From NCBI RefSeq assembly GCF_002900975.1, contig NZ_PJON01000001.1, positions 558,001-622,000 on the forward strand: DNA of 64,000 nucleotides, written 5' to 3'. The notes under the pieces are model-generated. The model was not told the origin of the DNA and ran no database searches. It saw only the letters and a program-made list of their open reading frames with translations. This DNA is from Tabrizicola aquatica. Lineage in GTDB: Bacteria; Pseudomonadota; Alphaproteobacteria; Rhodobacterales; Rhodobacteraceae. Shown in pieces: positions 14,616-26,481 of the stretch (position 1 is its first letter; every line of letters starts with the position of its first letter). Made by a program: the position numbers and the translations under genes.

Positions 14616-15740
14616 TCAAAGCCCGTCGAGTGCCACCCTGCGCCCCTGTCGCGAGGAGAGGGCAATGGCGTGGATCGCCTTCTCGATCTCCAGCCCGGCG
14701 GTGAAGTCCAGCGCCGGCCGGCCGCCGTCGCGGATCGCCCGCAGGAAGCCCGCAAGCTCGATCACCTTGAGGTCGTTGAAGCCCAGTTGATGACCCGGCG
14801 CGGGGCAGAAGGCGCCATAGGGTGGATGGTCGGGCGAGGTCAGGATGGTGGTAAAGCCCTGGGTCGCGCGGTCGCCCCGGTTCTGGAAAAGCTGGAATTC
14901 GTTCATCCTCTCCTGGTCGAAGATCAGCATGCCTTCGGTGCCGTGAAGCTCGAATCCCAGGCGCGACTTGCGGCCCCAGGCGCTGCGCGAGGCGGCGAAG
15001 GTGCCCTTCACGCCGCTGGCAAAGGTCAGAAGCGCGGTGGCGGTGTCTTCGTTCTCGACGGCGGCCCGGCCCAGGCCGTCGGGCAGTGGGCGGGTCTGGT
15101 GGATCGTCGCGATCTCGCCCAGGACGCTGTCGAGGGGGCCGGCGAGAAGGGTCAGCAGCGAGATCAGGTGGCAGCCGATGTCGCCCAGTGCGCCAAGGCC
15201 CGCGTCGGCCAGCGTGGCGCGCCAGGTCCAGGGCAGGGCGGGGTCGGCCTGGTAATCCTCGTCCACCCAGCCGCGGACATGGACCAGGCGACCGATGGCG
15301 CCGTCGGCCAGCAGTCGCGCGGCATGGGTCACGGCAGGATTGGCGATGTAGTTGTAGCCAAGCTGGGTCTTGCCGGGCGCGGCGCGGGCGGCGGCCTCCA
15401 TCGCGCGGGCGTCGTCCAGCGTCAGGGCCATGGGCTTTTCGCACCAGACATGCTTGCCGGCCTGGAGGGCCGCCACCGCCATCTCGCGGTGCATCCCGTT
15501 CGGGGTGGTGATCGAGACCACGTCGATGGCAGGGTCGGCAAGCAGCCCGCGCCAGTCGTCGGTGGCGCGGGCAAAGCCGAACTGGTCGGCCATGGCGCGG
15601 GCCTTGTCGGCGGGGGTGTCCACCAGGACCTCCAGCCGGACCGCGGGAACGTCGCCCATCACCGCCCGCACAGTGCGCCAGGCCAGGGCATGGGCCTTGC
15701 CCATGAAGCCGGTGCCGATCAGGCCGACGCCCAGGGTCAT
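14616..15740 (-). CDS. Gfo/Idh/MocA family oxidoreductase
   Basis: This 374-aa NAD(P)-dependent dehydrogenase has the Rossmann motif GVGLIGTGFMGKAHA at the N-terminus. The sugar/cyclitol dehydrogenase motif WCEKPMAL is at about residue 120, and a GALGDIGCHLISLL segment at about 222 carries the family's catalytic Asp/His. It is the last gene of the minus-strand set mocD-mocE-panB-like-this gene, and its ATG overlaps the previous stop. MocA proteins act on cyclitols or inosamines in rhizopine breakdown, so a methylated or amino-inositol product is a reasonable substrate; a sugar dehydrogenase role cannot be excluded. Confidence 0.85.
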   Translation of the reverse strand: MTLGVGLIGTGFMGKAHALAWRTVRAVMGDVPAVRLEVLVDTPADKARAMADQFGFARATDDWRGLLADPAIDVVSITTPNGMHREMAVAALQAGKHVWCEKPMALTLDDARAMEAAARAAPGKTQLGYNYIANPAVTHAARLLADGAIGRLVHVRGWVDEDYQADPALPWTWRATLADAGLGALGDIGCHLISLLTLLAGPLDSVLGEIATIHQTRPLPDGLGRAAVENEDTATALLTFASGVKGTFAASRSAWGRKSRLGFELHGTEGMLIFDQERMNEFQLFQNRGDRATQGFTTILTSPDHPPYGAFCPAPGHQLGFNDLKVIELAGFLRAIRDGGRPALDFTAGLEIEKAIHAIALSSRQGRRVALDGL

Positions 15741-16534
15741 GCCACCTGCTCCAGCCAGTCGTGGAAGGCTTCGACCACGGCGGGGTCGCAGTCCACCAGA
15801 TGCTGCGGGGCAGGATAGTCGCCGTCGTGGACATCGGTGGCAAAGCGGCTCATGGCCTGGATGCGAAGCTGTTGCAGCCGGTCATATTCGGCGGCGAAAT
15901 CGGCATAGACCTTGGCGTGGCGCGGGATGCGGCCGCGGTTCTGGCCCAGCACATCGTCCGAGAACAGGTACTGCGCATGGCCGCCCGCGCCGGCGCCCAT
16001 CGAGATGAGGAACAGGTTGGTCCGTTCCGCGATCAGGCGGGTGATGGAATGGGGCACCACCTCGATTTCCACGGCGAAGGCCCCGGCGTCCTCCAGCGCC
16101 TTGCACTGGTTCCAGACGAGTTGCGCGGTTTCCAGCGTCTTGCCCACAGCCTTGAAGCCGCCGGTCCAGGTGCTCTTGGAAGGGATGAGGCCGACATGGC
16201 CGCAGACGGGCAGCGCGTGGTCCGCCAGCGCCCTGACGGTTGCCAGAGAGCCCGAGCAGTAAAAGCCGTCAGCCCCGTGTTTGTACAGCGGGAAGGCCCA
16301 GCGGAGGAAATCCTCGGTCCCGCCGATTTCATAGAAATTGTCGCCGGGAAAGGCAAAGCAGTCGGGCGCTGCGTCACGGAACCGGCCGTCCAGGATCATC
16401 GCGGGCGGGACGGAGAGAAGCTCTACCCCCGCTTTCGCGGCGGCCTCGGCCTCTTCCAGGGTTTCGACCCGCAGCATGGCGAATTGGTGCTTGCCACGGG
16501 CGTCCAGCAGGTCGCGGACGGTCAGGCGGGGCAT
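15737..16534 (-). CDS. PanB-like protein with an altered active site
   Basis: The product (265 aa) aligns with ketopantoate hydroxymethyltransferase. GHVGLIPSKSTWTGGFKAVG and ALEDAGAFAVEIEVVP match the PanB GHIGLTPQ and AFAIVLECVP regions, and MGAGAGGHAQYLFSDDVLG matches the late motif. The N-terminal metal and substrate residues are changed: the usual GDSLG is replaced by SVPPAM, and the VKLEGG lysine region by FYCSGS. It is therefore unlikely to be the biosynthetic PanB. The ATG at 16534 overlaps the ferredoxin stop (TGATG), and the next gene overlaps its own stop. Given a demethylating oxygenase upstream, it may handle a one-carbon unit; that is inference. Confidence 0.7.
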   Translation of the reverse strand: MPRLTVRDLLDARGKHQFAMLRVETLEEAEAAAKAGVELLSVPPAMILDGRFRDAAPDCFAFPGDNFYEIGGTEDFLRWAFPLYKHGADGFYCSGSLATVRALADHALPVCGHVGLIPSKSTWTGGFKAVGKTLETAQLVWNQCKALEDAGAFAVEIEVVPHSITRLIAERTNLFLISMGAGAGGHAQYLFSDDVLGQNRGRIPRHAKVYADFAAEYDRLQQLRIQAMSRFATDVHDGDYPAPQHLVDCDPAVVEAFHDWLEQVA

Positions 16535-16845
16535 CACGGCACCTCGACGTAGACCTGGCCAGCCTCGACCTTCACGGGGAAGGTGCGCAGGTTGACGCAG
16601 ACCGGGGCGCGCTTGGCTTCGCCCGTGCGATAGTCGAACTGGCCGTTGTGCTTGGGACATTCGATCAGGTGGCCCATGACCAAGCCGTCGCAGAGATGCA
16701 CGTCCTCATGCGTGCATCTGCCGGCGGTGGCGTAGAACTGGCCATCGGGCGAATGGTAGATCGCGAAGGTCTGGGCGCCGTGGTCCCAGCGGATCAGATC
16801 CTCGGCGTCGATGTCGTCGGTAGAGCAGGCGGAAATCCAGGGCAT
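16534..16845 (-). CDS. mocE: MocE-like Rieske [2Fe-2S] ferredoxin
   Basis: This is a 103-aa soluble Rieske ferredoxin. The two cluster-binding pairs are C44-x-H46 in CTHEDVHLCDG and C63-x2-H66 in CPKHNGQFD. It ends shortly after the domain, so it is an electron carrier rather than an oxygenase subunit. It begins seven bases after the oxygenase stop and presumably feeds electrons to it. In rhizobial rhizopine catabolism MocE is the ferredoxin partner of MocD. No ferredoxin reductase (MocF) gene is in the window, so the reductase must come from elsewhere. Confidence 0.85.
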   Translation of the reverse strand: MPWISACSTDDIDAEDLIRWDHGAQTFAIYHSPDGQFYATAGRCTHEDVHLCDGLVMGHLIECPKHNGQFDYRTGEAKRAPVCVNLRTFPVKVEAGQVYVEVP

Positions 16846-16852
16846 GTCGTCC

Positions 16853-17944
16853 TCATTCGGCTGCGGCGGGGCGCATCATGCCCGGCACGTATTGGTGGAA
16901 GTCCTCGCGGTAGGGTTTGGCGGTGGGCGGCAGGTCGCGTTTCAGGAAGTAATCCTCGTTCAGAAGCTGGCGCTTCAGCGCGGGCCACATCTCGCGGAAG
17001 GCTTCGGCGATGGAGCGATTGGGCGGCGGCAGGTCGGCCTTGATGACCTCATGCAGCCGGGGCAGGGCGTGGTAGGGCACCATCGGGAACATATGGTGTT
17101 CGACGTGGTAGTTCATGTTCCAGTAGATGAAGCGGCTGATCGGGTTCATCAGGACGGTGCGGCTGTTCAGCCGGTGGTCGATGACATTGTCGGCCAGGCC
17201 GCCGTGCTGCAAAAGCCCGGTCATCACATGGTGCCAGGCGCCATACAGACGGGGCAGGCCAATGACCATCAGCGGCAGGATCGAGCCCAGGGCGACGGCC
17301 AGGCCAAGGGTGGCCAGATAGATCGTCAGATGGATCAGGGCAACGCGCTGCACCTTGCCCCATTCGCTTTCGGGGACGAAGGTGCGCTCTTCCGCCGTGG
17401 GGCCGGATACCGCGTTGCGGATCAGGGTGGGGAAGAATTTCAGCACGTCGAGGATGCCGAAGAAGTTGAGGATCAGTTTGGCCAGTTCCGGCGGGCGCAT
17501 CACGGCGATTTCCGGGTCGCGGCCCACAAGGTAGGTCTCGGAATGGTGGCGCGCATGGCTCCAGCGCCAGGTGGCCGAGTTGCGCATGATCATGAAGCTG
17601 GCGATCTGGTAGACCCAGTTGTTCATCCAGGGCGTCTTGAAGGCGGTGCCGTGGCTGCATTCGTGCCAGCGCGAGTCGGAGGCCGAGCCGTAGAGGACGC
17701 CATACGCCAGCCAGAACGGTGCCGACCACCAGCTGGGCCAAAGCGCGATACCGATGCCCGCAAGCAGGATCATGCTGCCGTACAAGAGGATCGTGTCGCG
17801 GATCGCCGGGCCGTCGCTGCGGGCCATGAGATCCTTCATCACCTTGCGCGGCACCTCGGTATGATACCATTCGGCCGCCGTAAGTCCGCTGTCCACCGCG
17901 CGCTTTGCATCGGCGCCAAACGGGCTGTAGTCGCGTTTGCCCAT
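16853..17944 (-). CDS. mocD: MocD-like membrane di-iron oxygenase (fatty acid desaturase superfamily)
   Basis: This is a 363-aa integral membrane non-haem di-iron enzyme. Three histidine boxes are visible: HECSH (94-98), HARHH (130-134) and HVEHH (280-284), with an additional WHHVMTGLLQH segment at 238-248. Hydrophobic spans lie near residues 51-90, 105-122 and 200-232. The ATG at 17944 has GGGGAGG six bases upstream; an earlier in-frame ATG at 18052 would run into the LacI promoter region. It is first in a tight operon with a Rieske ferredoxin, as MocD is in rhizobia, where it takes part in O-demethylation of rhizopine. A plain lipid desaturase is the alternative. Confidence 0.8.
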   Translation of the reverse strand: MGKRDYSPFGADAKRAVDSGLTAAEWYHTEVPRKVMKDLMARSDGPAIRDTILLYGSMILLAGIGIALWPSWWSAPFWLAYGVLYGSASDSRWHECSHGTAFKTPWMNNWVYQIASFMIMRNSATWRWSHARHHSETYLVGRDPEIAVMRPPELAKLILNFFGILDVLKFFPTLIRNAVSGPTAEERTFVPESEWGKVQRVALIHLTIYLATLGLAVALGSILPLMVIGLPRLYGAWHHVMTGLLQHGGLADNVIDHRLNSRTVLMNPISRFIYWNMNYHVEHHMFPMVPYHALPRLHEVIKADLPPPNRSIAEAFREMWPALKRQLLNEDYFLKRDLPPTAKPYREDFHQYVPGMMRPAAAE

Positions 17945-18087
17945 GTTTGCCTCCCCATCCCAGGGCGCAGGTCGCGCCGCTGTTGACTGGATAGGGCGGG
18001 GGGTGGCCATTCTCCAAGAGAGGCGCTTGTGGGTTTCGTCAGACTGCATCATGCTTGCAGGGCAGTATGATGGGATTTCGGCAAGAC

Positions 18088-19119
18088 ATGGCCAATCGAC
18101 CGACGATCCATGATGTGGCCCGCGAGGCCGGGGTATCGACCGCGACAGTGGACCGTGTCCTGAACGGGCGTGAGCGGGTGCGCGAGGATACCGCGCGGCG
18201 GGTCTATGACGCTGCGCGTCTGATCGGCTATCACGCGGCCCCGCTGATCGGGCAGCGGGTGCAGGCCGAACTGCCGCGCCTGCGGCTGGGTCTGGTCCTG
18301 CACAAGGAGCGGCAGTCCTTCTACCAGGCCTTCAAGTCCGAGGCCGAGCGCGCGGTGGCGCGGGCGGTTGGGGTGCGCGTCTCGCTGCAGGTGGGGTTCG
18401 CCGCGTCGCAATCGCCCAAGGATTTCACCAGCCTGATGGAGGGGATGGCGGGCCGCGTCGATGCGATTGCCGCAACGGCGGTGACCCATCCCGAAGTGAC
18501 GGAAGCGGTGATGCGGCTGAACGCCAAGGGGGTGCCGTGCTTTTCGCTTCTGAACGACTTTGGTCAGGGGGTGCGGCAAAACTATCTGGGACTCAATAAC
18601 TTGAAGGTCGGGCGGATCGCGGCGCACATGATGGCGACAGCCTCGCACCAGGCCGGGAAGATCGCCGTCTTTGTTGGCGGCTACCGTTGGCACGGCCATG
18701 AACTGCGGGAAACCGGGGTGCGCAGCTATTTCCGCGAACATGCGCCGCAGTTCCAGATCCTGGATACGCTGATCAACCTGGAAACCCGGCAGTTGACCTA
18801 TGAGGCGACGCTGGATCTGTTGGGCCGCCATCCGGACCTGCGGGGAATCTACTGTGCTGGCGGCGGCATGGAGGGGGCAATCGCCGCCGTCCGCGAGGCG
18901 CGCGCGCCGGGGCAGGTGGCGCTGGTGGTCAACGAGTTGACGCCGGAAAGCCGCGCCGCCCTGATCAGCCGGCATGTGACAATGGTGATCGGCACGCCGC
19001 TGCAACGGCTGTGCGACGATCTGATCACCCTGGCGTCCGAGGCGGTCAACGGCGGGATGACGGCCGTGCAGGGCCAGCACTTCCTGCCGCCGGACCTTTA
19101 CCTGCCCGAGTCTGTTTGA
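18088..19119 (+). CDS. LacI family transcriptional regulator
   Basis: The 343-aa protein has the LacI helix-turn-helix and hinge at its N-terminus (PTIHDVAREAGVSTATVDRV, then LNGRERVRE) followed by a periplasmic-binding-protein-like effector domain. I start it at the ATG at 18088, which places the HTH at residue 5 as in the family; an ATG at 18067 is possible. It is divergent from the mocD-like operon, separated by about 140 bp, and lies directly upstream of the isomerase and importer genes. It probably controls both sides in response to the imported cyclitol. A fitting operator is at 20059-20074. Confidence 0.9.
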   Translation: MANRPTIHDVAREAGVSTATVDRVLNGRERVREDTARRVYDAARLIGYHAAPLIGQRVQAELPRLRLGLVLHKERQSFYQAFKSEAERAVARAVGVRVSLQVGFAASQSPKDFTSLMEGMAGRVDAIAATAVTHPEVTEAVMRLNAKGVPCFSLLNDFGQGVRQNYLGLNNLKVGRIAAHMMATASHQAGKIAVFVGGYRWHGHELRETGVRSYFREHAPQFQILDTLINLETRQLTYEATLDLLGRHPDLRGIYCAGGGMEGAIAAVREARAPGQVALVVNELTPESRAALISRHVTMVIGTPLQRLCDDLITLASEAVNGGMTAVQGQHFLPPDLYLPESV

Positions 19120-19245
19120 TGAAATAACATCAGACCGCTGACCATCATTTCGTCAGGGATGATGGGATTGGCCCGCGACGGATTGACGCGAACTTCCCGC
19201 CCGCCGATGGTCCGGCCACCAGGAATGCAGGGTGGGAGGCCCGGG

Positions 19246-20052
19246 ATGATCCAGTTCGCATTGAACCACATGACGGTGGCACGGCTGTCGTTCCGCGAGC
19301 TTGTCGCGCTGTCGAAGCAACTGGGCTGCATCGGGGTCGAGCTGCGCAACGACCTGCCCCAGCCCTTGTTCGACGGAACGGACCCGGCCGAGGCGGGGGC
19401 TTTCCTGCGCTCGCAGGGGCTGCGGCTGCTGGCGGTGGCCGAGGTGAAGCGGTTCAACGACTGGTCCGCGGACAAGGAAGCCGAGGCGCTGGCCCTGATG
19501 AAGATCGCCCAGGCCGCCGGGGCCGAGGCGGTCAGCCTGATCCCGCGCAACGACAACCTGGGGATGGGCAACGGCGAGCGGCAGGCGAACCTGCGGGTGG
19601 CGCTGAAGGCGCTGAAGCCGATGCTGGAGGACCACAGTCTGGTCGGCATGGTCGAGCCGCTGGGCTTTGAGGTCTGCGCGCTGCGCTACAAGGCCGAGGC
19701 CGTCGAGGGCATCGAGGCCGTCGGCGGCAAGGGCCGGTTCAAGCTGGTGCATGACACGTTCCACCACACGCTGGCCCACGGCGGGCCGCTGTTCCCCGAG
19801 CATACCGGGATCGTCCATGTCTCGGGCGTGGTCGACCAGGAGGTCGGGATCAACGACATGCGCGACCCGCACCGGGTGCTGGTGACGCCGGGCGACCGGC
19901 TGGGCAACCTGGAGCAGATCGCGGCACTGCAGGCGGCGGGCTGGAACGGGCCGGTAAGCTTTGAGGCGTTCTCGCCCGAGGTCCACGCCCTGTCGGACCC
20001 GGCCAGCGCCCTGCGGGCCAGCATGGATTACATGGCGAAGGTGCCGGCGTGA
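19246..20052 (+). CDS. Sugar phosphate isomerase/epimerase family TIM barrel (inosose isomerase-like)
   Basis: This 268-aa AP-endonuclease-2-type TIM barrel begins MIQFALNHMTVARLSFREL. Typical metal-site segments are visible, including MVEPLGFE, KLVHDTFHHTL, VHVSGVVD and VSFEAFSPEVH. This pattern fits cyclitol enzymes of the IolI/MocC kind, which isomerise inososes. The ATG at 19246 has GGGAGG upstream. It follows the LacI gene and precedes the inositol-type importer, so it probably acts on the imported cyclitol after oxidation. Assignment to inosose rather than a ketose substrate is inference. Confidence 0.75.
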   Translation: MIQFALNHMTVARLSFRELVALSKQLGCIGVELRNDLPQPLFDGTDPAEAGAFLRSQGLRLLAVAEVKRFNDWSADKEAEALALMKIAQAAGAEAVSLIPRNDNLGMGNGERQANLRVALKALKPMLEDHSLVGMVEPLGFEVCALRYKAEAVEGIEAVGGKGRFKLVHDTFHHTLAHGGPLFPEHTGIVHVSGVVDQEVGINDMRDPHRVLVTPGDRLGNLEQIAALQAAGWNGPVSFEAFSPEVHALSDPASALRASMDYMAKVPA

Positions 20053-20058
20053 CCTTGT

Positions 20059-20074
20059 TTGCAACCGGTTGCAA
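20059..20074. promoter_or_regulatory. LacI-type operator palindrome
   Basis: TTGCAACCGGTTGCAA is a perfect 16-bp palindrome with a central CG, the form bound by LacI family repressors. It lies seven bases after the isomerase stop and 134 bp before the binding-protein ATG, upstream of a plausible promoter. The nearby LacI protein is the obvious candidate to bind it. Confidence 0.65.
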
Positions 20075-20161
20075 GAATCGGTTGACCGGGGGGAGTCGGC
20101 GGCTCAGTCTGGACTGACGAAGGGCCGCGGCGCGCAGGGAGGCGGGTTGCGGCATGCAGAA

Positions 20162-20191
20162 TTGAACCGCTGTAGTGGACGGCGGACAATA
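20162..20191 (+). promoter_or_regulatory. Putative sigma-70-type promoter for the importer operon
   Basis: TTGAAC (20162-20167) and ACAATA (20186-20191) are separated by 18 bp and lie just ahead of a strong GGGAGGA ribosome site and the ATG at 20208. The fit to consensus is reasonable but unproven. Confidence 0.4.
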
Positions 20192-20207
20192 ACGGGAGGA
20201 GTGACCC

Positions 20208-21149
20208 ATGAAGAAAACCCTTATCGCCGCAGGCTTTGCCTCGCTGCTTGGGACCACCGCGATGGCGGAAGGTATCGGCGTTTCGATGGCGCTGTTCGAC
20301 GACAACTTCCTGACCGTCCTGCGCAACGGCATTCAGGAGCAGGCCGATGCGGCCGGTCTGTCGGTGCAGATCGAAGATGCGCAGAACGACGTTGCCAAGC
20401 AGCTGGACCAGATCAACAACTTCATCGCGAGCGGAGTTGACGCGATCATCGTGAACCCGGTCGACACCTCGGCCACCCAGGCGATGTCGGACGCCGCTGC
20501 CGCCGCTGGTGTGCCGCTGGTATACGTGAACCGCCAGCCGATCAACGTCGACACGCTGCCCGACAACCAGGCGTTCGTCGCGTCGAACGAAAGCGAGTCC
20601 TCGCGTCAGGGTTTCATCGAGCAGTGCAACCAGTGGAAAGCCGCCGGCAAGGAAGAAGTCAGCGTCTACGTCATGCAGGGCGAGTTGTCGAACCAGGCCG
20701 CCGTGCAGCGCACGCAGAACTACTATGACGTGATGGAAGCCGGCGAATGCGCGGTGAAGGTCACCGTGATCGACCAGCAGACCGCCAACTGGAGCCGTGA
20801 CCAGGCCCAGTCGCTGATGACCAACTGGCTTTCGACCGGCGCGGCCTTCGACGGCGTGCTGGCCAACAACGACGAGATGGCCCTGGGCGCGATCCAGGCG
20901 ATCAAGGCGGCCGGCATCGGCATGGACGCGGTCATCGTGTCGGGCGTCGATGCGACCCAGGACGCTCTGGCCTCGATGCAGGCCGGGGAACTCGACATCA
21001 CCGTGTTCCAGAACGCGGCGGCCCAGGGCGGCGGCGCGCTGGATGCGGCCGTCAAGCTGGCCGCAGGCGAGGCGGTTGACCAGAAGGTCTATGTCCCGTT
21101 CGAACTGGTGACCCCGGCGAACATCGACGGCTACCTGTCGAAGAACTAA
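20208..21149 (+). CDS. ABC transporter substrate-binding protein, inositol/ribose type (IbpA/MocB-like)
   Basis: This 313-aa periplasmic binding protein has a signal peptide (cleavage near TTAMA-EG, residue 21). The CUT2-type motifs are visible: MALFDDNFLTVLRNGI, VDAIIVNPVDTSATQAM, PLVYVNRQP, ANNDEMALGAIQAIK and IVSGVDATQDAL. The NPVDTSA segment and the adjacent iolG gene favour myo-inositol or a derivative as the ligand, as in Caulobacter IbpA and rhizobial MocB. It heads the importer operon and is followed by a hairpin that would leave it more abundant than the permease. Confidence 0.85.
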   Translation: MKKTLIAAGFASLLGTTAMAEGIGVSMALFDDNFLTVLRNGIQEQADAAGLSVQIEDAQNDVAKQLDQINNFIASGVDAIIVNPVDTSATQAMSDAAAAAGVPLVYVNRQPINVDTLPDNQAFVASNESESSRQGFIEQCNQWKAAGKEEVSVYVMQGELSNQAAVQRTQNYYDVMEAGECAVKVTVIDQQTANWSRDQAQSLMTNWLSTGAAFDGVLANNDEMALGAIQAIKAAGIGMDAVIVSGVDATQDALASMQAGELDITVFQNAAAQGGGALDAAVKLAAGEAVDQKVYVPFELVTPANIDGYLSKN

Positions 21150-21168
21150 GCCCCTTCCGGGCACCTGT

Positions 21169-21198
21169 GGGGCGGCTGGCAACGGTCGCCCCGTTTTT
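21169..21198 (+). terminator. Attenuating terminator after the binding-protein gene
   Basis: A GGGGCG...CGCCCC stem followed by five T residues lies 20-50 bp after the binding-protein stop and before the permease start. Partial termination here is common in ABC operons and raises the ratio of binding protein to permease. Confidence 0.65.
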
Positions 21199-21257
21199 GC
21201 TGGTGCGGGCAAGGCACCGGGCAGGCTGAAAATCGCATATTTGGGAGGGAAGGCGAC

Positions 21258-22370
21258 GTGGCAGAAGCAACGCATGGCCTTGGCGGCTTGAAATACGATC
21301 CGGCAAAGCGGACCCGAGCGCCGGAGTGGAACGTGTTCGGTGCCTTGGTCCTGATCGTCGTGATCTTCGAGATCCTGAACCGGATGCAGGGCGGATCGTT
21401 CCTCTTCAACATGCGCGACAATGTCGACGCGATCTTCAACCAGCAGCGGCTGGACATCATGATCCTGCAGGTGGCGATCATAGGGATCATCGCGCTGGGG
21501 GTGACGCAGGTCATCATCATCGGCGGGATCGACCTGTCGTCGGGGTCCGTCGTGGGTGCTACGGCGATGGTGACGATGAGCTTTGCCCAGACGGCGATGG
21601 TCAACGGCAACCCGAACCCGAAGGCGATCTTCGGCGACTGGGCGATGGACCTGCCGGTGATCGTGCCCATTGCGATTGGCCTGGCCTGCGGGCTTTTGGC
21701 CGGACTTATCAACGGCGTGCTGGTGGCTTACACCAAGATCCCGCCCTTCATCGCCACGCTGGGCGTGATGGTCAGCGCACGCGGCGTGGCGCGCTGGTGG
21801 TCCAACGGTCAGCCGGTCAGCTTTCCGACCGAAACCTATGGGACGCTGGCGAACGGTGATCTGCTGGGCGGGATGACATTCGGCCTTCTGTCCTGGCCGG
21901 GCCAGAACCCGGCCGTGGTCTTTGTCCTGCTGGCGATCCTGTTCCACGTCATCATGACCTACACGCTGTATGGCAAGCGCAGCTATGCCATCGGGTCCAA
22001 CGAGGCGGCGGCCCGGATGTCGGGGATCAACGTCGACCGTCACAAGGTGCTGGTCTATGCGATGGCGGGCCTGCTTGCGGCTGTCGCGGCGGTGCTGCTG
22101 ACCTCGAAGAACCTGACGGCGCAAGCCGGGATGGGGGTGATGTACGAACTGGACGCCATCGCGATGGCGGTGATCGGGGGCGTCTCATTGGCCGGGGGTC
22201 GGGGGTCGATCCTTGGGACGGTCTTGGGCGCGGCGATCTTTTCGGTGATCATCTCGGGCTTCACCTCGATCAAGCTGGACGCCTATTACCAGGAGATGGT
22301 CAAGGGCGCGATCATTGTCGGTGCGGTGGTCTTGGACCAGTGGCGTCAACGCAAACGGACCCGGGGGTAA
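21258..22370 (+). CDS. ABC transporter permease (inositol/ribose CUT2 type)
   Basis: The product (370 aa) is a polytopic inner-membrane permease of the RbsC/IatP family with about ten spans. A long N-terminal cytosolic segment (1-30) precedes the first. The signature GGIDLSSGSVVGATAM (about residues 91-106) and GRGSILGTVLGAAIFSV near the C-terminus are typical. The start is a GTG at 21258 with GGAGGGA seven bases upstream. It is followed closely by the ATPase gene. Confidence 0.9.
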   Translation: MAEATHGLGGLKYDPAKRTRAPEWNVFGALVLIVVIFEILNRMQGGSFLFNMRDNVDAIFNQQRLDIMILQVAIIGIIALGVTQVIIIGGIDLSSGSVVGATAMVTMSFAQTAMVNGNPNPKAIFGDWAMDLPVIVPIAIGLACGLLAGLINGVLVAYTKIPPFIATLGVMVSARGVARWWSNGQPVSFPTETYGTLANGDLLGGMTFGLLSWPGQNPAVVFVLLAILFHVIMTYTLYGKRSYAIGSNEAAARMSGINVDRHKVLVYAMAGLLAAVAAVLLTSKNLTAQAGMGVMYELDAIAMAVIGGVSLAGGRGSILGTVLGAAIFSVIISGFTSIKLDAYYQEMVKGAIIVGAVVLDQWRQRKRTRG

Positions 22371-22375
22371 GGGCA

Positions 22376-23140
22376 ATGAGCAAGATCATTCTGGAAACCC
22401 GTGGCCTGACCAAGCACTACGGCGGCGTGCATGCGCTGGACGATGCGAACTTCATCCTGCACGAGGGCGAGCATGTCGCCGTCGTGGGCGACAACGGGGC
22501 GGGGAAATCGACCTTTGTCCGTCAGGTGACGGCGGTCGAGCAGCGCACCAGCGGCGAGGTAATTTTTGACGGCCAGCCGGTGCAGTTCGCCGGCCCGCTG
22601 GAGGCGCGGCAGGCCGGGATCGAGACGGTGTTCCAGACGCTGGCGCTGGCTGACGACCTGGACGTGCCGTCGAACCTCTTCCTGGGGCGCGAGCTGTTCA
22701 AGTTCAGGCTGGGGCCGTTTTCCTGGCTGGACCGCAAGACGATGCGCGAGCGGACGATGGAAGCCTTGGCGACCACGGCGGTCAAGATCCCCAACGTCGA
22801 CAACCCGATCCGCAACATGTCAGGCGGGCAGCGGCAGTGTGTGTCCATTGCGCGGACGGCGGCCTTTGCCTCGAAGCTGGTGATCATGGACGAACCCACG
22901 GCGGCGCTGGGGGTGCAGGAGACGGCTCAGGTCGAGAACATCATCCGGGGCCTGAAGGAGCGGGGCATCCCGATGATCCTGATTTCCCACAACCTGCGGC
23001 AGGTGTTCGATCTGGTGGACCGGATCGTGGTCTTTCGTCGCGGGCGGATCGTCGCCAGCTTGCGCAAGGACGAGACGGACGGCAATGACATCGTAAGCTA
23101 CATCACCGGCGTCAAAGGGGGCGCGGATGTCTATGTCTGA
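22376..23140 (+). CDS. Sugar ABC transporter ATP-binding protein (single-domain CUT2 type)
   Basis: This 254-aa ATPase energises the importer. Walker A is GDNGAGKST (39-47), the signature is NMSGGQRQCVSIART, Walker B is KLVIMDEPTAAL, and the H-loop is LISHNLRQVF. It has one nucleotide-binding domain instead of the two found in RbsA-type proteins, as in the fructose system FrcA, so it would work as a dimer. The ATG at 22376 sits six bases after the permease stop. Its 3' end overlaps the SDR gene by 14 bp. Confidence 0.9.
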   Translation: MSKIILETRGLTKHYGGVHALDDANFILHEGEHVAVVGDNGAGKSTFVRQVTAVEQRTSGEVIFDGQPVQFAGPLEARQAGIETVFQTLALADDLDVPSNLFLGRELFKFRLGPFSWLDRKTMRERTMEALATTAVKIPNVDNPIRNMSGGQRQCVSIARTAAFASKLVIMDEPTAALGVQETAQVENIIRGLKERGIPMILISHNLRQVFDLVDRIVVFRRGRIVASLRKDETDGNDIVSYITGVKGGADVYV

Positions 23141-23915
23141 CCATCGTGAGACCGTGGCCGTGATTGCCGGCGGCACCCAGGGCCTGGGCCTGGCAATCGC
23201 CGAGGCGCTGGTGGCCGATGGCTGCCGGCGGCTGGTGGTGGCCGGGCGGCGCCTGGCCGAGGGCGAGGCGGCGGTGCAGCGGCTGCGCGGCCTGGGGGCC
23301 GAGGCGCATTTCCGCCGCACCGACATGGCCGAGGTCTCGGACGCGGTGGCGCTGGTGGACGAGGGTGCGGCGCGCTTTGGTCGGGTGACCGCGCTGGTCA
23401 ATGCGGCAGCGACGACGGAACGCGGCTCGATCCTGGATTGCTCGCCCGCGGATTTCGACCGGCATATCGCGGTGAATACGCGCGGGCCGTTCTTCGCGCT
23501 GCAACGCTTTGCGCAACTGGCGGTGGAGAAGGGGCATCCGGCCGCAGCGGTGAACATCCTGTCGATGGTGGTGCATTGCGGGCAAAGCTACCTCGCGCCC
23601 TATTCCGCGTCGAAGGCGGCGCTGGCGAACATCACCAAGAATGCGGCGCAGGCGCTGCGCGGGCACCGGATCCGAGTCAACGGGATCAATTGCGGCTGGA
23701 TGGACACCCCCGGCGAGGATGAGACCCAGCGCCGCTTTCATGGCGCGCAGGATGGCTGGCTGGAGGCCGCCGAGGCGCGCCAGCCGATGGGGATGCTGGT
23801 GAAGCCGGGCCATGTCGCGGGGCTGGCCAGCTACTTGCTTTCCGATGCGTCCGGCGTGATGACCGGCGCATTGGTGGATTTCGATCAGAATGTCGCCGGG
23901 GCCTACCCGGAGTAA
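23127..23915 (+). CDS. SDR family oxidoreductase
   Basis: The product (262 aa) is a short-chain dehydrogenase. The dinucleotide motif is GGTQGLG near the N-terminus, NAAAT follows at about residue 90, and the catalytic site is the later S with YSASKAA (Y about 153, K about 157). The start overlaps the ATPase gene, either at ATG 23127 or six bases later at 23133. In this operon it probably oxidises or reduces a cyclitol or inosose intermediate. The exact substrate is not readable from sequence. Confidence 0.85.
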   Translation: MSMSDHRETVAVIAGGTQGLGLAIAEALVADGCRRLVVAGRRLAEGEAAVQRLRGLGAEAHFRRTDMAEVSDAVALVDEGAARFGRVTALVNAAATTERGSILDCSPADFDRHIAVNTRGPFFALQRFAQLAVEKGHPAAAVNILSMVVHCGQSYLAPYSASKAALANITKNAAQALRGHRIRVNGINCGWMDTPGEDETQRRFHGAQDGWLEAAEARQPMGMLVKPGHVAGLASYLLSDASGVMTGALVDFDQNVAGAYPE

Positions 23916-23924
23916 GGAGAGAAG

Positions 23925-24926
23925 ATGACGATCAGGTTCGGGCTTCTGGGTGCAGGGCGCATCGGGAAGGTTCATGCGAAGGCGGTGACGGGCAACCCGG
24001 CCGCAAAGCTGGTGGCAGTGTCCGATGCGATGCCGGCCGCGGCCCAGGCGATTGCGGATCAGTATGGCTGCGACGTCCGGACCATCGACGCCATCTGCGC
24101 GGCCAAGGATATTGACGCGGTGGTGATCTGCACGCCGACCGACACCCACGCCGACCTGATCGAGCAGTTCGTTAAGGCCGGCAAGGCGGTGTTCTGCGAA
24201 AAGCCCATCGACCTGTCGCTGGCCCGCGTGAAGCAGTGCCTGGAGGTCGTCCGCGCCCACAAGGGCACGCTGATGGTCGGCTTCAACCGCCGCTTCGACC
24301 CGCATTTCCAGGCGGTCCGGGGCGAGATCGACAAGGGGACCATCGGCGACGTGGAAATGGTGGTCATCACCAGCCGCGACCCGGGCGCGCCGCCGGTCGA
24401 CTATATCAAGCGGTCGGGGGGGATCTTCCGCGACATGACGATCCATGACTTCGACATGGCCCGGTATCTTCTGGGCGAGGAAGTCGCGGAAGTCTCGGCC
24501 ATGGCTTCGGTGCTGGTGGACCCGGCGATCGGTGCGGCAGGCGACAGCGACAGTGTGCAGGTGATGCTGCGCACGGCCACCGGCAAGATGGCGGTGATCT
24601 CGAACAGCCGCCGGGCGACATATGGCTATGACCAGCGGATTGAGGTGCATGGCTCCAAGGGGGCGGCGAGCGCCGAGAACCAGCGCCCGGTCAGCATCGA
24701 GGTTGCAACGGGCGCGGGCTATACCCGGCCGCCGCTGCATGACTTCTTCATGACCCGCTACACCGAGGCCTATGCCGCCGAAATCGCCGCTTTCATCGAC
24801 GCGATGGCGGGCAAGGCTGCGGCCAGCCCTTCCGGCGAGGATGGGCTGCTGGCGCTGGCGCTGGCCGAAGCGGCGCTGAAGTCGGTCGCCGAAGGCCGTT
24901 CCGTGAAGATGACCGAGGTTCTCTGA
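23925..24926 (+). CDS. iolG: Inositol 2-dehydrogenase
   Basis: IolG oxidises myo-inositol to 2-keto-myo-inositol using NAD+. The 333-aa protein has the Rossmann motif [17 protein letters not shown], the FCEKPIDL motif at about residue 92, and [18 protein letters not shown] with the catalytic Asp and His. This combination is characteristic of inositol dehydrogenases within the Gfo/Idh/MocA family. A ribosome site (AAGGAGAG) lies in the nine-base gap after the SDR gene. It is the last gene of the operon and the strongest single clue to the substrate class. iolB, iolC, iolD and iolE are not in the window. Confidence 0.88.
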
Positions 24927-24960: not shown

Positions 24961-25137
24961 GCCCGTGCCAAGCATGGCCGGCGCGGCATCTGCCGGGCCG
25001 GCCCAACTGCTCCATGGGGACAGGGTCGCACCAGGCGACCGCCATCCCGGCCGGACGCGCGCTGCCGGCCCTGGCCACGCTTGTCCTTCCCATGCCGGCA
25101 TGAAACGCTTGGCCCCCAGACCAAGCCGAGGCATGCC

Positions 25138-26319
25138 ATGATCGACCCGTCCCGTTTTCTGTCTGATCTTCACCAGTTGCGCCGCTTTGGGGCCGAAGGC
25201 CGTGGTGTGGTCCGACCGGCCTTCTCGGCCCCCGATCTGGCGGCGCGCGACTGGCTTGCCGGGCGCATGGCCGCAGCGGGGCTGGAGGTCCGGGTGGATG
25301 CGATGGGCAATGTCTTTGGCCTTGCGCCGGGGCGGTCGCTGCTGCTCGGGTCGCATTCCGACACGCAGCCGACCGGGGGCTGGCTGGACGGGGCGCTTGG
25401 CGTGATCGCGGGCCTGGAGGTCGCGCGCGCGGCGCGTGAGGCGAGGGGGCCGGCGATCTCGGTCGTGTCGTTTCAGGATGAAGAGGGGCGTTTCGGCGGC
25501 ACGACCGGATCGGCGGTCTGGTCGGGGGCGCTGTCGCTGGCCGAGGCGGATGGAGTCGAGGATCTGGACGGGATCACCCTGCGCGCGGCGCGACAGGCGC
25601 TTGGTGACCGGGTCACCGGCGAGGTCGATCCGGCGCGGTTCACCGGCTATCTTGAGTTGCACATCGAACAGGGGCCGATTCTGGATGCTGCGGCCGAGCA
25701 GATCGGGGTGGTCACCGATATCGTGGGCTATCGCGAGGTCATGGTCACCTTGTCCGGCCAGCAGAATCATGCGGGCACGACCCCGATGGCCCTGCGGCGG
25801 GATGCGTTTCAGGGGTTGGCTGCCTTCGCGGCGCAACTGAACGACAATCTGCGCAACGTGGTGACGCCGCAGTCGGTCTGGACCATCGGCCACGTCACGC
25901 TAAGCCCCAACGCCGCGTCGATCGTTCCGGGGCAGGCGCAGTTTTCGATGCAGTGGCGCGATGGAGATGAGGCGCGGCTGGAGCGGATGCAGGCTGTCAT
26001 CGAAACCACCCTGCGCGAGGTCGCGCGGGCGACCGGTCTGGATCTGTTTGTCGGGCCAGTGCTGGGCCTTGCGCCGGTGGCGATGGATGCGGCCCTGCGC
26101 GCGCGTCTTGAAGTGGCAGCCGAAGCGGTGGCCCCGGGCCGTTGGCGCCGGATGCCATCGGGCGCCCTGCACGACGCCACCAACGTGGCGTGCCTGATGC
26201 CGGTGGCGATGCTGTTCGTGCCGTCGATCGGCGGGATCAGCCACGCGTTTGAAGAGGACACGGCGGAGGCGGATCTGGTGGCGGGCCTGCGGACCCTGGC
26301 GGCTGCGGCGGGGGTCTGA
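25138..26319 (+). CDS. Zn-dependent hydrolase, hydantoinase/carbamoylase family (M20)
   Basis: This 393-aa enzyme resembles N-carbamoyl-L-amino-acid hydrolases and allantoate amidohydrolases. Metal-ligand motifs are [18 protein letters not shown] (about 70-87), QDEEGRFGG with the catalytic Glu, LELHIEQGP with a metal His, and [10 protein letters not shown] near the end. The ATG at 25138 sets a normal N-terminus ([18 protein letters not shown]). It stands alone between the inositol cluster and tRNA-Asn. A paralogue of the same family is at 44236, so the two probably have different carbamoyl or ureido substrates. Confidence 0.85.
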
Positions 26320-26406: not shown

Positions 26407-26481
26407 TGGCTCCGGCGGTAGGGATCGAACCTACGACCAATTGATTAACAGTCAACTGCTCTACCGCTGAGCTACGCCGGA
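26407..26481 (-). tRNA. tRNA-Asn (GTT)
   Basis: The 75-nt minus-strand sequence folds as a cloverleaf: acceptor TCCGGCG/CGCCGGA, D arm GCTC/GAGC, anticodon stem GTTGA/TCAAT with loop CTGTTAA (anticodon GTT), and T arm GTAGG/CCTAC with TTCGATC. The CCA end is encoded. Confidence 0.97.

Follow-up and report, generated by a model that had tools for sequence, protein, structure and literature searches.

We describe a divergent gene cluster at positions 14616..24926 of a 64,000-nucleotide stretch of the Tabrizicola aquatica genome (the window; NZ_PJON01000001.1, 558,001-622,000; source genome 3.87 Mb). A minus-strand operon encoding a MocD-like oxygenase, the ferredoxin MocE, a PanB-like protein and a Gfo/Idh/MocA dehydrogenase lies divergent from a plus-strand import and oxidation operon headed by a LacI-type regulator. 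We consider it probable that the cluster is one LacI-controlled regulon that imports and demethylates an O-methylated inositol, with the PanB-like protein taking up the methyl carbon. The PanB-like protein is the most informative part of the cluster, and the novelty lies in this partner and in the operator, not in the resemblance to the moc genes of rhizopine (3-O-methyl-scyllo-inosamine) catabolism.

It is established chemistry that an O-methyl ether, once oxidised, becomes a hemiacetal, which breaks down to an alcohol and formaldehyde. In the pathway that we propose, the ABC importer would take in an O-methylated inositol such as pinitol, ononitol or O-methyl-scyllo-inositol, and MocD, with electrons from MocE and an unlinked ferredoxin reductase, would oxidise the O-methyl group to the hemiacetal. 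The PanB-like protein would then capture this carbon as a hydroxymethyl group or formaldehyde, with tetrahydrofolate (THF) as its most likely acceptor, and in some rhizobial relatives FolD and PurU would go on to make formate, freeing THF. IolG, a scyllo-inositol-type dehydrogenase, an SDR dehydrogenase and a TIM-barrel isomerase would convert the bare inositol to scyllo-inosose, which the products of distant iolEDBC genes would break down. The substrate, its demethylation, the one-carbon (C1) transfer to THF and the order of the steps are what we infer.

A PanB-like protein without the ketoacid site

The PanB-like gene (15737..16534, minus strand; PF02548, 115.2 bits) starts at 16534, where it overlaps the MocE stop codon by one base, and its product is the proposed acceptor or transferase of the methyl-derived C1 unit. 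The protein has the PanB fold, with a likeness to PEP mutase/isocitrate lyase enzymes at lower Z, and its 87 bits fall short of the cut-off of 207.55 for the PanB family model TIGR00222. In E. coli PanB, Asp45, Ser46, Asp84, Lys112 and Glu114 are the Mg and ketoacid residues, and Glu181 and His136 are catalytic. The first five residues were kept in 0 of 54 PanB-like rows (the window counted twice) of a 58-row alignment, as against all five in each of the four true PanB rows; Glu181 and His136 were kept in all 54. Positions 45-46 are gaps in the PanB-like rows of that alignment, and in a smaller alignment they pair with varied residues, with Asp at 45 in one of 19 PanB-like rows (L036). The PanB-like protein differs from PanB of solved structure (1m3u, 1o68, 3vav) in having lost the Mg/ketoacid residues and a stretch of about 19 columns, in its longer C-terminal end and in its linkage to an oxygenase.

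Database records label these proteins 3-methyl-2-oxobutanoate hydroxymethyltransferase, and on that annotation the gene might pass for a spare pantothenate gene. The chance of this is negligible, given that none of the 54 rows has the five residues and that a separate PanB with its Mg/ketoacid residues intact is encoded on contig 5 of the same genome; we therefore reject a pantothenate enzyme. The PanB-like proteins form a family of their own that shares the PanB fold.

Genome contigs scanned with a MocD alignment yielded at least 568 relatives, and the best 80 of these, a set biased to close ones, were retrieved with their surroundings (L045-L124). Record titles sort them into 41 Rhodobacteraceae-type loci (one titled only Pseudomonadota) and 39 rhizobial-type loci; 20 of the 80 end less than 4.5 kb downstream, and the other 60 are well covered. 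A PanB-like gene is present in 62 of the 80, two of them on weak matches (47 and 79 bits), and in 46 of the 60 well-covered loci; by type, the counts are 36/41 Rhodobacteraceae-type and 26/39 rhizobial-type. It also follows mocDEF in both MocR-type (rhizopine) clusters, L041 and L108.

A search of the phylum found the PanB-like protein at E 1e-35 or better in at least 19 of 398 genomes, all from the window's family or class, a count that may be low, with up to six first-look candidates per genome scored among the matches listed. Twenty-four of the 26 matches were read (those set aside being the window itself and the G353 fragment) and 23 were scored, L228, with a score under 100, being the unscored one. 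A membrane diiron oxygenase gene, of the MocD or FA_hydroxylase type, lies within 4 kb in 18 of the 23 scored copies, and an oxygenase or MocE in 20, the misses being L225 (at a contig end), L226 and L143. Of 20 divergent family members picked by hand, 14 have an oxygenase near and 15 an oxygenase or MocE; here the misses are L127, L128 (FA_hydroxylase gene more than 4 kb away), L138, L141 and L143.

Some PanB-like genes adjoin enzymes of the FA_hydroxylase superfamily, not MocD (L134, L135 and L144 of the hand-picked set and L155 outside it, with PF04116 confirmed), and neighbours of this type were assigned in L218 and L221 by phmmer to PF04116 proteins of other loci only. Such neighbours suggest that the PanB-like protein partners another oxygenase type too. 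Other arrangements were also seen. L125 and L149 have a cluster of IolG-like, PanB-like, TIM-barrel (PF01261 in L125) and MocE genes beside an ABC importer but without a MocD that could be recognised as its own; of the small IolG-like/PanB-like cluster at L045, only those two genes were seen; and the divergent PanB-like genes of L138 and L141 stand with an IolC-like kinase (PfkB-type by eye) and an ABC importer, and no oxygenase was detected within 4 kb of them.

PanB catalyses hydroxymethyl transfer between 5,10-methylene-THF and a ketoacid. Since the PanB-like protein lacks the ketoacid site, follows the oxygenase and in rhizobia comes before PurU and FolD, it appears well placed to load carbon onto THF. 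In rhizobia purU and folD often come after its gene: 13 of the 80 loci have PurU or FolD near MocD, and in 11 of these 13, all rhizobial-type, PurU and the PanB-like gene share a strand and lie no more than 200 bp apart. The PurU/FolD trait (18 rows) shows at least 12 changes on a 110-row MocD tree from which six long-branch rows were omitted and on which loci cut by a contig end counted as lacking PurU, which can inflate the changes. With that many changes, the link has probably been gained or lost many times.

Several observations weigh against this assignment. The PanB-like gene is missing from 14 of the 60 well-covered loci, and a locus on an Acidiphilium plasmid does without it as well; no other C1 gene substituting for it was seen in nine of the 14 (translated starts, two proteins searched). 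Among the loci without it, L094 has an FMN reductase after MocF and L088 an aldose epimerase. PurU occurs in 12/39 rhizobial-type loci vs only 1/41 of the Rhodobacteraceae type, and PurU or FolD lies within 4 kb in only one of the 23 scored copies of the phylum sample. The window genome has no PurU over the cut-off, and it has a glutathione-dependent formaldehyde dehydrogenase in pieces at the ends of contigs 1, 5, 6 and 9.

These points give room to the main rival, demethylation without folate, in which the PanB-like protein would speed breakdown of the hemiacetal, or be an aldolase or lyase acting on a ring or keto intermediate, with formaldehyde passing to the glutathione route. The lost Mg/ketoacid pocket leaves the protein's substrate open, and the lower-Z likeness to PEP mutase/isocitrate lyase enzymes, the missing PurU and the pieces of the glutathione enzyme in the window genome, and the single Rhodobacteraceae-type locus with PurU beside the PanB-like gene all fit such a role. 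However, folate enzymes recur beside the gene in rhizobial loci, and PanB, the nearest family, is folate dependent according to the part of the source available (PMC4814558). We regard the folate-free role as rather unlikely overall, and as more open for the window's clade than for rhizobia. The wider form of the folate proposal we put forward tentatively, at somewhat less than an even chance: the PanB-like proteins may be an unrecognised enzyme family linking membrane diiron O-demethylases to folate, so that the methyl carbon is kept and free formaldehyde avoided, also in rhizopine catabolism and with FA_hydroxylase-type oxygenases that act on other substrates.

Two divergent operons and a shared palindrome

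The genes that an earlier note on this DNA had named are present as open reading frames at the positions it gave, with nearly every part correctly identified; the starts were corrected for the oxygenase (17944, not 18052), the LacI regulator (18088) and the PanB-like protein (16534). The MocD-like membrane diiron oxygenase, the proposed O-demethylase, occupies 16853..17944 on the minus strand (PF00487, 131.5 bits). Its start (MGKRDYS...) is conserved in most aligned relatives and has GGGGAGG ahead. The protein has the His boxes of the diiron oxygenases of the FA_desaturase superfamily, whose members are membrane proteins: H130, H134, H166, H169, H170, H316, H319 and H320 (numbered from the ORF start at 18052) are invariant in eight homologues. 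It is 68-72% identical to four rhizobial MocD homologues, among them that of the MocR-type cluster L041 (68%); a sequence search for relatives of solved structure returned none at E 0.01. MocE, a Rieske-type 2Fe-2S ferredoxin (16534..16845, minus strand), matches TIGR02377 at 169.1 bits (cut-off 136.15), and the window has both the MocD oxygenase and the MocE ferredoxin of the moc system. The last gene of the operon (14616..15740, minus strand; PF01408/PF22725) encodes a Gfo/Idh/MocA dehydrogenase, probably of the scyllo-inositol dehydrogenase type. Its best solved relative, over nearly the whole length (436.6 bits), is 5ya8, a scyllo-inositol dehydrogenase with L-glucose dehydrogenase activity, from which it differs in sitting in an oxygenase operon.

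On the plus strand the order is LacI, TIM barrel, binding protein, permease, ATPase, SDR and IolG. The LacI/GalR-family regulator (18088..19119; PF00356, PF13407) is followed by a xylose-isomerase-like TIM barrel, the proposed inosose isomerase (19246..20052; PF01261, AP_endonuc_2). The earlier note had called this protein IolI/MocC-like. Its best solved relatives are 4hgx and 2q02 (84.8 and 84.7 bits), presumably the Salmonella protein STM4435, IolI2; the likeness to MocC did not hold, as there was no match to the MocC/IolE-like model TIGR04379 at E 1e-5. Next come a periplasmic sugar/cyclitol-binding protein (20208..21149; PF13407, Peripla_BP_4), whose best solved relative is 4yo7, probably a myo-inositol complex, an ABC permease (21258..22370; PF02653, BPD_transp_2) and an ABC ATPase (22376..23140; PF00005). 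The SDR dehydrogenase (23127..23915) matches NF004847 (PRK06198) at 342.5 bits (cut-off 240). IolG, inositol 2-dehydrogenase (23925..24926), matches TIGR04380 at 426.4 bits (cut-off 355) and the solved inositol 2-dehydrogenase 4hkt at 540.4 bits. To the right of the cluster lie an amidase/carbamoylase-like gene (25081-26319; family by eye) and a tRNA-Asn gene (26407-26481).

Among the best 80 of at least 568 loci, MocE is near MocD in 79, LacI in 75, a TIM barrel in 63, an ABC ATPase in 45, MocF in 40 and an IolG- or MocA-type dehydrogenase in 26. With MocE and LacI so regularly in place, the gene order of the cluster far exceeds chance. The best matches to the locus are Rhodobacteraceae-type records, many of them lake or pond bins, together with Gemmobacter, Rhodobacter and Tabrizicola strains. 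A non-rhizobial host, to which the earlier note drew attention, is nothing unusual, since about half of the loci (41/80) are Rhodobacteraceae-type by their titles. Many alphaproteobacterial loci, this cluster among them, have a LacI gene that is divergent to mocDE (in rhizobia also mocF) and heads an import and oxidation operon.

The divergent promoter region (17945..18087) is the 143-bp gap between the conserved MocD and LacI starts. It holds a predicted LacI operator, TGATGGGATTTCGGCA (18068..18083), one base off the palindrome TGAYGN6CRTCA, and a second predicted operator, TGATGAAATAACATCA (19117..19132), stands ahead of the import operon and is one of five exact palindromes in the genome. 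The palindrome was counted with one fixed relaxation at either end, and the expectation was taken from mononucleotide shuffles. It occurs in 26 of 81 LacI/MocD gaps (0.18 expected) and 31 of 71 LacI/TIM gaps (0.15 expected), at densities of about 1.7 and 1.9 per kb respectively vs 0.07 over whole loci. Nine of the LacI/TIM gaps are on the plus strand, eight of these beside a second LacI gene, and five of the eight have a site. The window itself has three sites, two of them in the LacI/MocD and LacI/TIM gaps.

For Rhodobacteraceae-type loci the palindrome is in 24/43 LacI/MocD gaps and 20/38 LacI/TIM gaps. Rhizobial-type loci have it in 11/33 LacI/TIM gaps and in only 2/38 LacI/MocD gaps, a figure that speaks against a common operator there; of six rhizobial plasmid loci with LacI beside MocD, one has the strict palindrome (L038; none in L034, L037, L040, L043 and L044), and no strict palindrome was found around two other LacI genes on plasmids (L229, L230). 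Over the whole genome the strict palindrome has five sites vs one for a reversed control, one of the five being the window's, and a looser form has three places vs two for the reversed control. One strict site (C1:537187) lies between Hint-type and RTX-type genes (families by eye), and the MocF-like locus on contig 9 has no site. The presence of a LacI-type palindrome in the two gaps, for the window as for roughly half of its Rhodobacteraceae relatives, makes it probable that the oxygenase and import operons form one regulon, a link that the earlier note had left open. Support for a shared operator is good among the window's kin and poor among rhizobia.

As a member of the FA_desaturase superfamily, the oxygenase might instead modify membrane lipids and merely neighbour a sugar operon, and the earlier note had held that a lipid oxygenase with no link to the importer would overturn its proposal. 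We find this extremely improbable: the neighbours are alike in most loci, the palindrome is common to the oxygenase and importer operons, homologues occur in MocR-type clusters, and the protein is no close match to the desaturase equivalog (35.7 bits against a cut-off of 500). A lipid desaturase is rejected on the gene linkage and the shared palindrome.

Substrate and downstream steps

The reductase and the later enzymes had been expected elsewhere in the genome, and for the later enzymes this was borne out. No MocF reductase is in the window cluster; the best genome match is on contig 9 (47% identity, 270 bits), surrounded by genes that by eye are unrelated, and that it serves MocE is a guess. 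A MocF gene is near MocD in 2/41 Rhodobacteraceae-type vs 38/39 rhizobial-type loci. The MocF-like matches and all three IolB-family matches lie outside the window, which was not separately searched as a whole for iolC, iolD and iolE; these three genes adjoin the best IolB match on contig 6, where iolB, iolE, iolD and iolC stand in a row. A second inositol-like set is also on contig 6 (152000-170000, L146), with IolD-, IolC- and IolB-like genes facing Gfo/Idh/MocA and IolE-like genes and a LacI-type regulator (by eye) beside them. In Marivivens, the equivalent gene set continues directly into iolG, iolC, iolD and iolE.

The substrate is likely an O-methylated cyclitol. MocD homology, the dehydrogenases (two of the three in the cluster are closest to solved inositol dehydrogenases) and the palindrome point this way, and so uphold the cyclitol half of the earlier proposal that a methylated inositol or inosamine is imported; its rhizopine half is opposed by the regulator, the binding protein and the want of a MocC-like gene. 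For the window, pinitol, ononitol and O-methyl-scyllo-inositol are all candidates. The scyllo-inositol-type dehydrogenase would favour a scyllo or chiro product entering through the inosose isomerase. The importer had been described as inositol-type, and it is an ABC importer of the sugar type; the searches identify no ligand for it, and it counts against the proposed substrate that importer and regulator alike point to no particular compound. According to the available part of PMC5789663, Mimosa root exudate, of which pinitol is the most concentrated component, induces the mocDEF homologues of R. mesoamericanum together with an ABC operon and inositol genes; the same text has its authors ascribing the induction to rhizopine, which also goes against our proposal.

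If the proposal is right, it would account for the way in which bacteria dispose of the methyl carbon when they use cyclitol methyl ethers such as pinitol, and the rhizopine pathway as described would miss a step. It would also assign a role to a protein family whose present annotation as a pantothenate enzyme misleads vitamin-pathway predictions, and it would suggest that the use of rhizopine arose from a broader methyl-inositol system. A candidate operator is offered for the LacI regulators of these loci, though the palindrome is uncommon in rhizobial loci.

Rhizopine catabolism and other known systems

Could the cluster serve rhizopine catabolism proper? Its MocD and MocE are closely related to their counterparts from the MocR-type cluster on the R. 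leguminosarum A1 plasmid pRLa11 (L041), which has MocR (NF052281, 751.3 bits, cut-off 650), IolE-like and Gfo/Idh/MocA genes and mocDEF; L041 was assigned by NCBIfam and L108 by phmmer to L041 proteins. However, the window regulator is of the LacI type in place of MocR, the cluster is without a MocC/IolE-like gene, and the binding protein reaches 40.9 bits against a cut-off of 420 for the rhizopine-type NF052284, though L041's own two binding proteins score no more than 138 and 39.8. Of the 80 loci, one has a MocR gene near MocD. A quick-method MocD tree of 116 rows, with SH-aLRT as its only support measure, pairs L041 with L108 (support 99) inside an otherwise LacI-linked clade of 38 rows (94) and places the window in another, almost wholly Rhodobacteraceae-type clade (52 rows, 87), apart from the MocR pair. 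Rhizopine proper is therefore very unlikely, and we reject it on the regulator, the binding protein and the missing MocC. Rhizopine use is likely a special branch of a wider methyl-cyclitol system.

In the open-licence PMC literature we found no description of a link between PanB-like and moc genes, which leaves its absence in print unproven, and no paper on a methyl-sugar or pinitol pathway; what came up for the PanB-like link concerned serine hydroxymethyltransferase. The rhizopine model, in the accessible parts of PMC10107442 and PMC5789663, names only mocDEF beside mocR, mocBA and mocC. In rhizobia, Sullivan and colleagues noted the pairing of LacI, a TIM barrel and mocDEF; the excerpted text (PMC3538637) has the LacI genes beside mocD as homologues of FixV, which activates nifA2 in Mesorhizobium loti, and proposes an inositol derivative as the FixV signal. 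In S. meliloti 1021, SM_b20817-20820 are given as LacI, mocD, mocE and mocF (PMC11387232). A LacI gene on Sinorhizobium chiapasense pSchITTGS70c (L230), 61.8% identical to the MocD-side LacI of Mesorhizobium huakuii, lies between two nodD2 genes and near a nodA-family gene.

With the fixV/msi119-mocDEF loci, as far as the excerpts of PMC3538637 go, the window cluster has in common a LacI gene that diverges from mocD and is followed by a TIM-barrel gene; it differs in that the importer, SDR and IolG come after the TIM barrel and in having no MocF, and those excerpts make no mention of the PanB-like gene or the operator. With rhizopine mocDEF of S. meliloti L5-30 and R. leguminosarum, as given in the portions seen of PMC10107442 and PMC5789663, it has MocD and MocE homologues in the same order, with Gfo/Idh/MocA and ABC importer genes near. 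The MocR-type clusters L041 and L108 also carry the PanB-like gene, PurU and FolD. Unlike the rhizopine moc system, the window cluster has LacI in place of MocR, is without MocF, MocB and MocC, and probably acts on an uncharged methyl-inositol.

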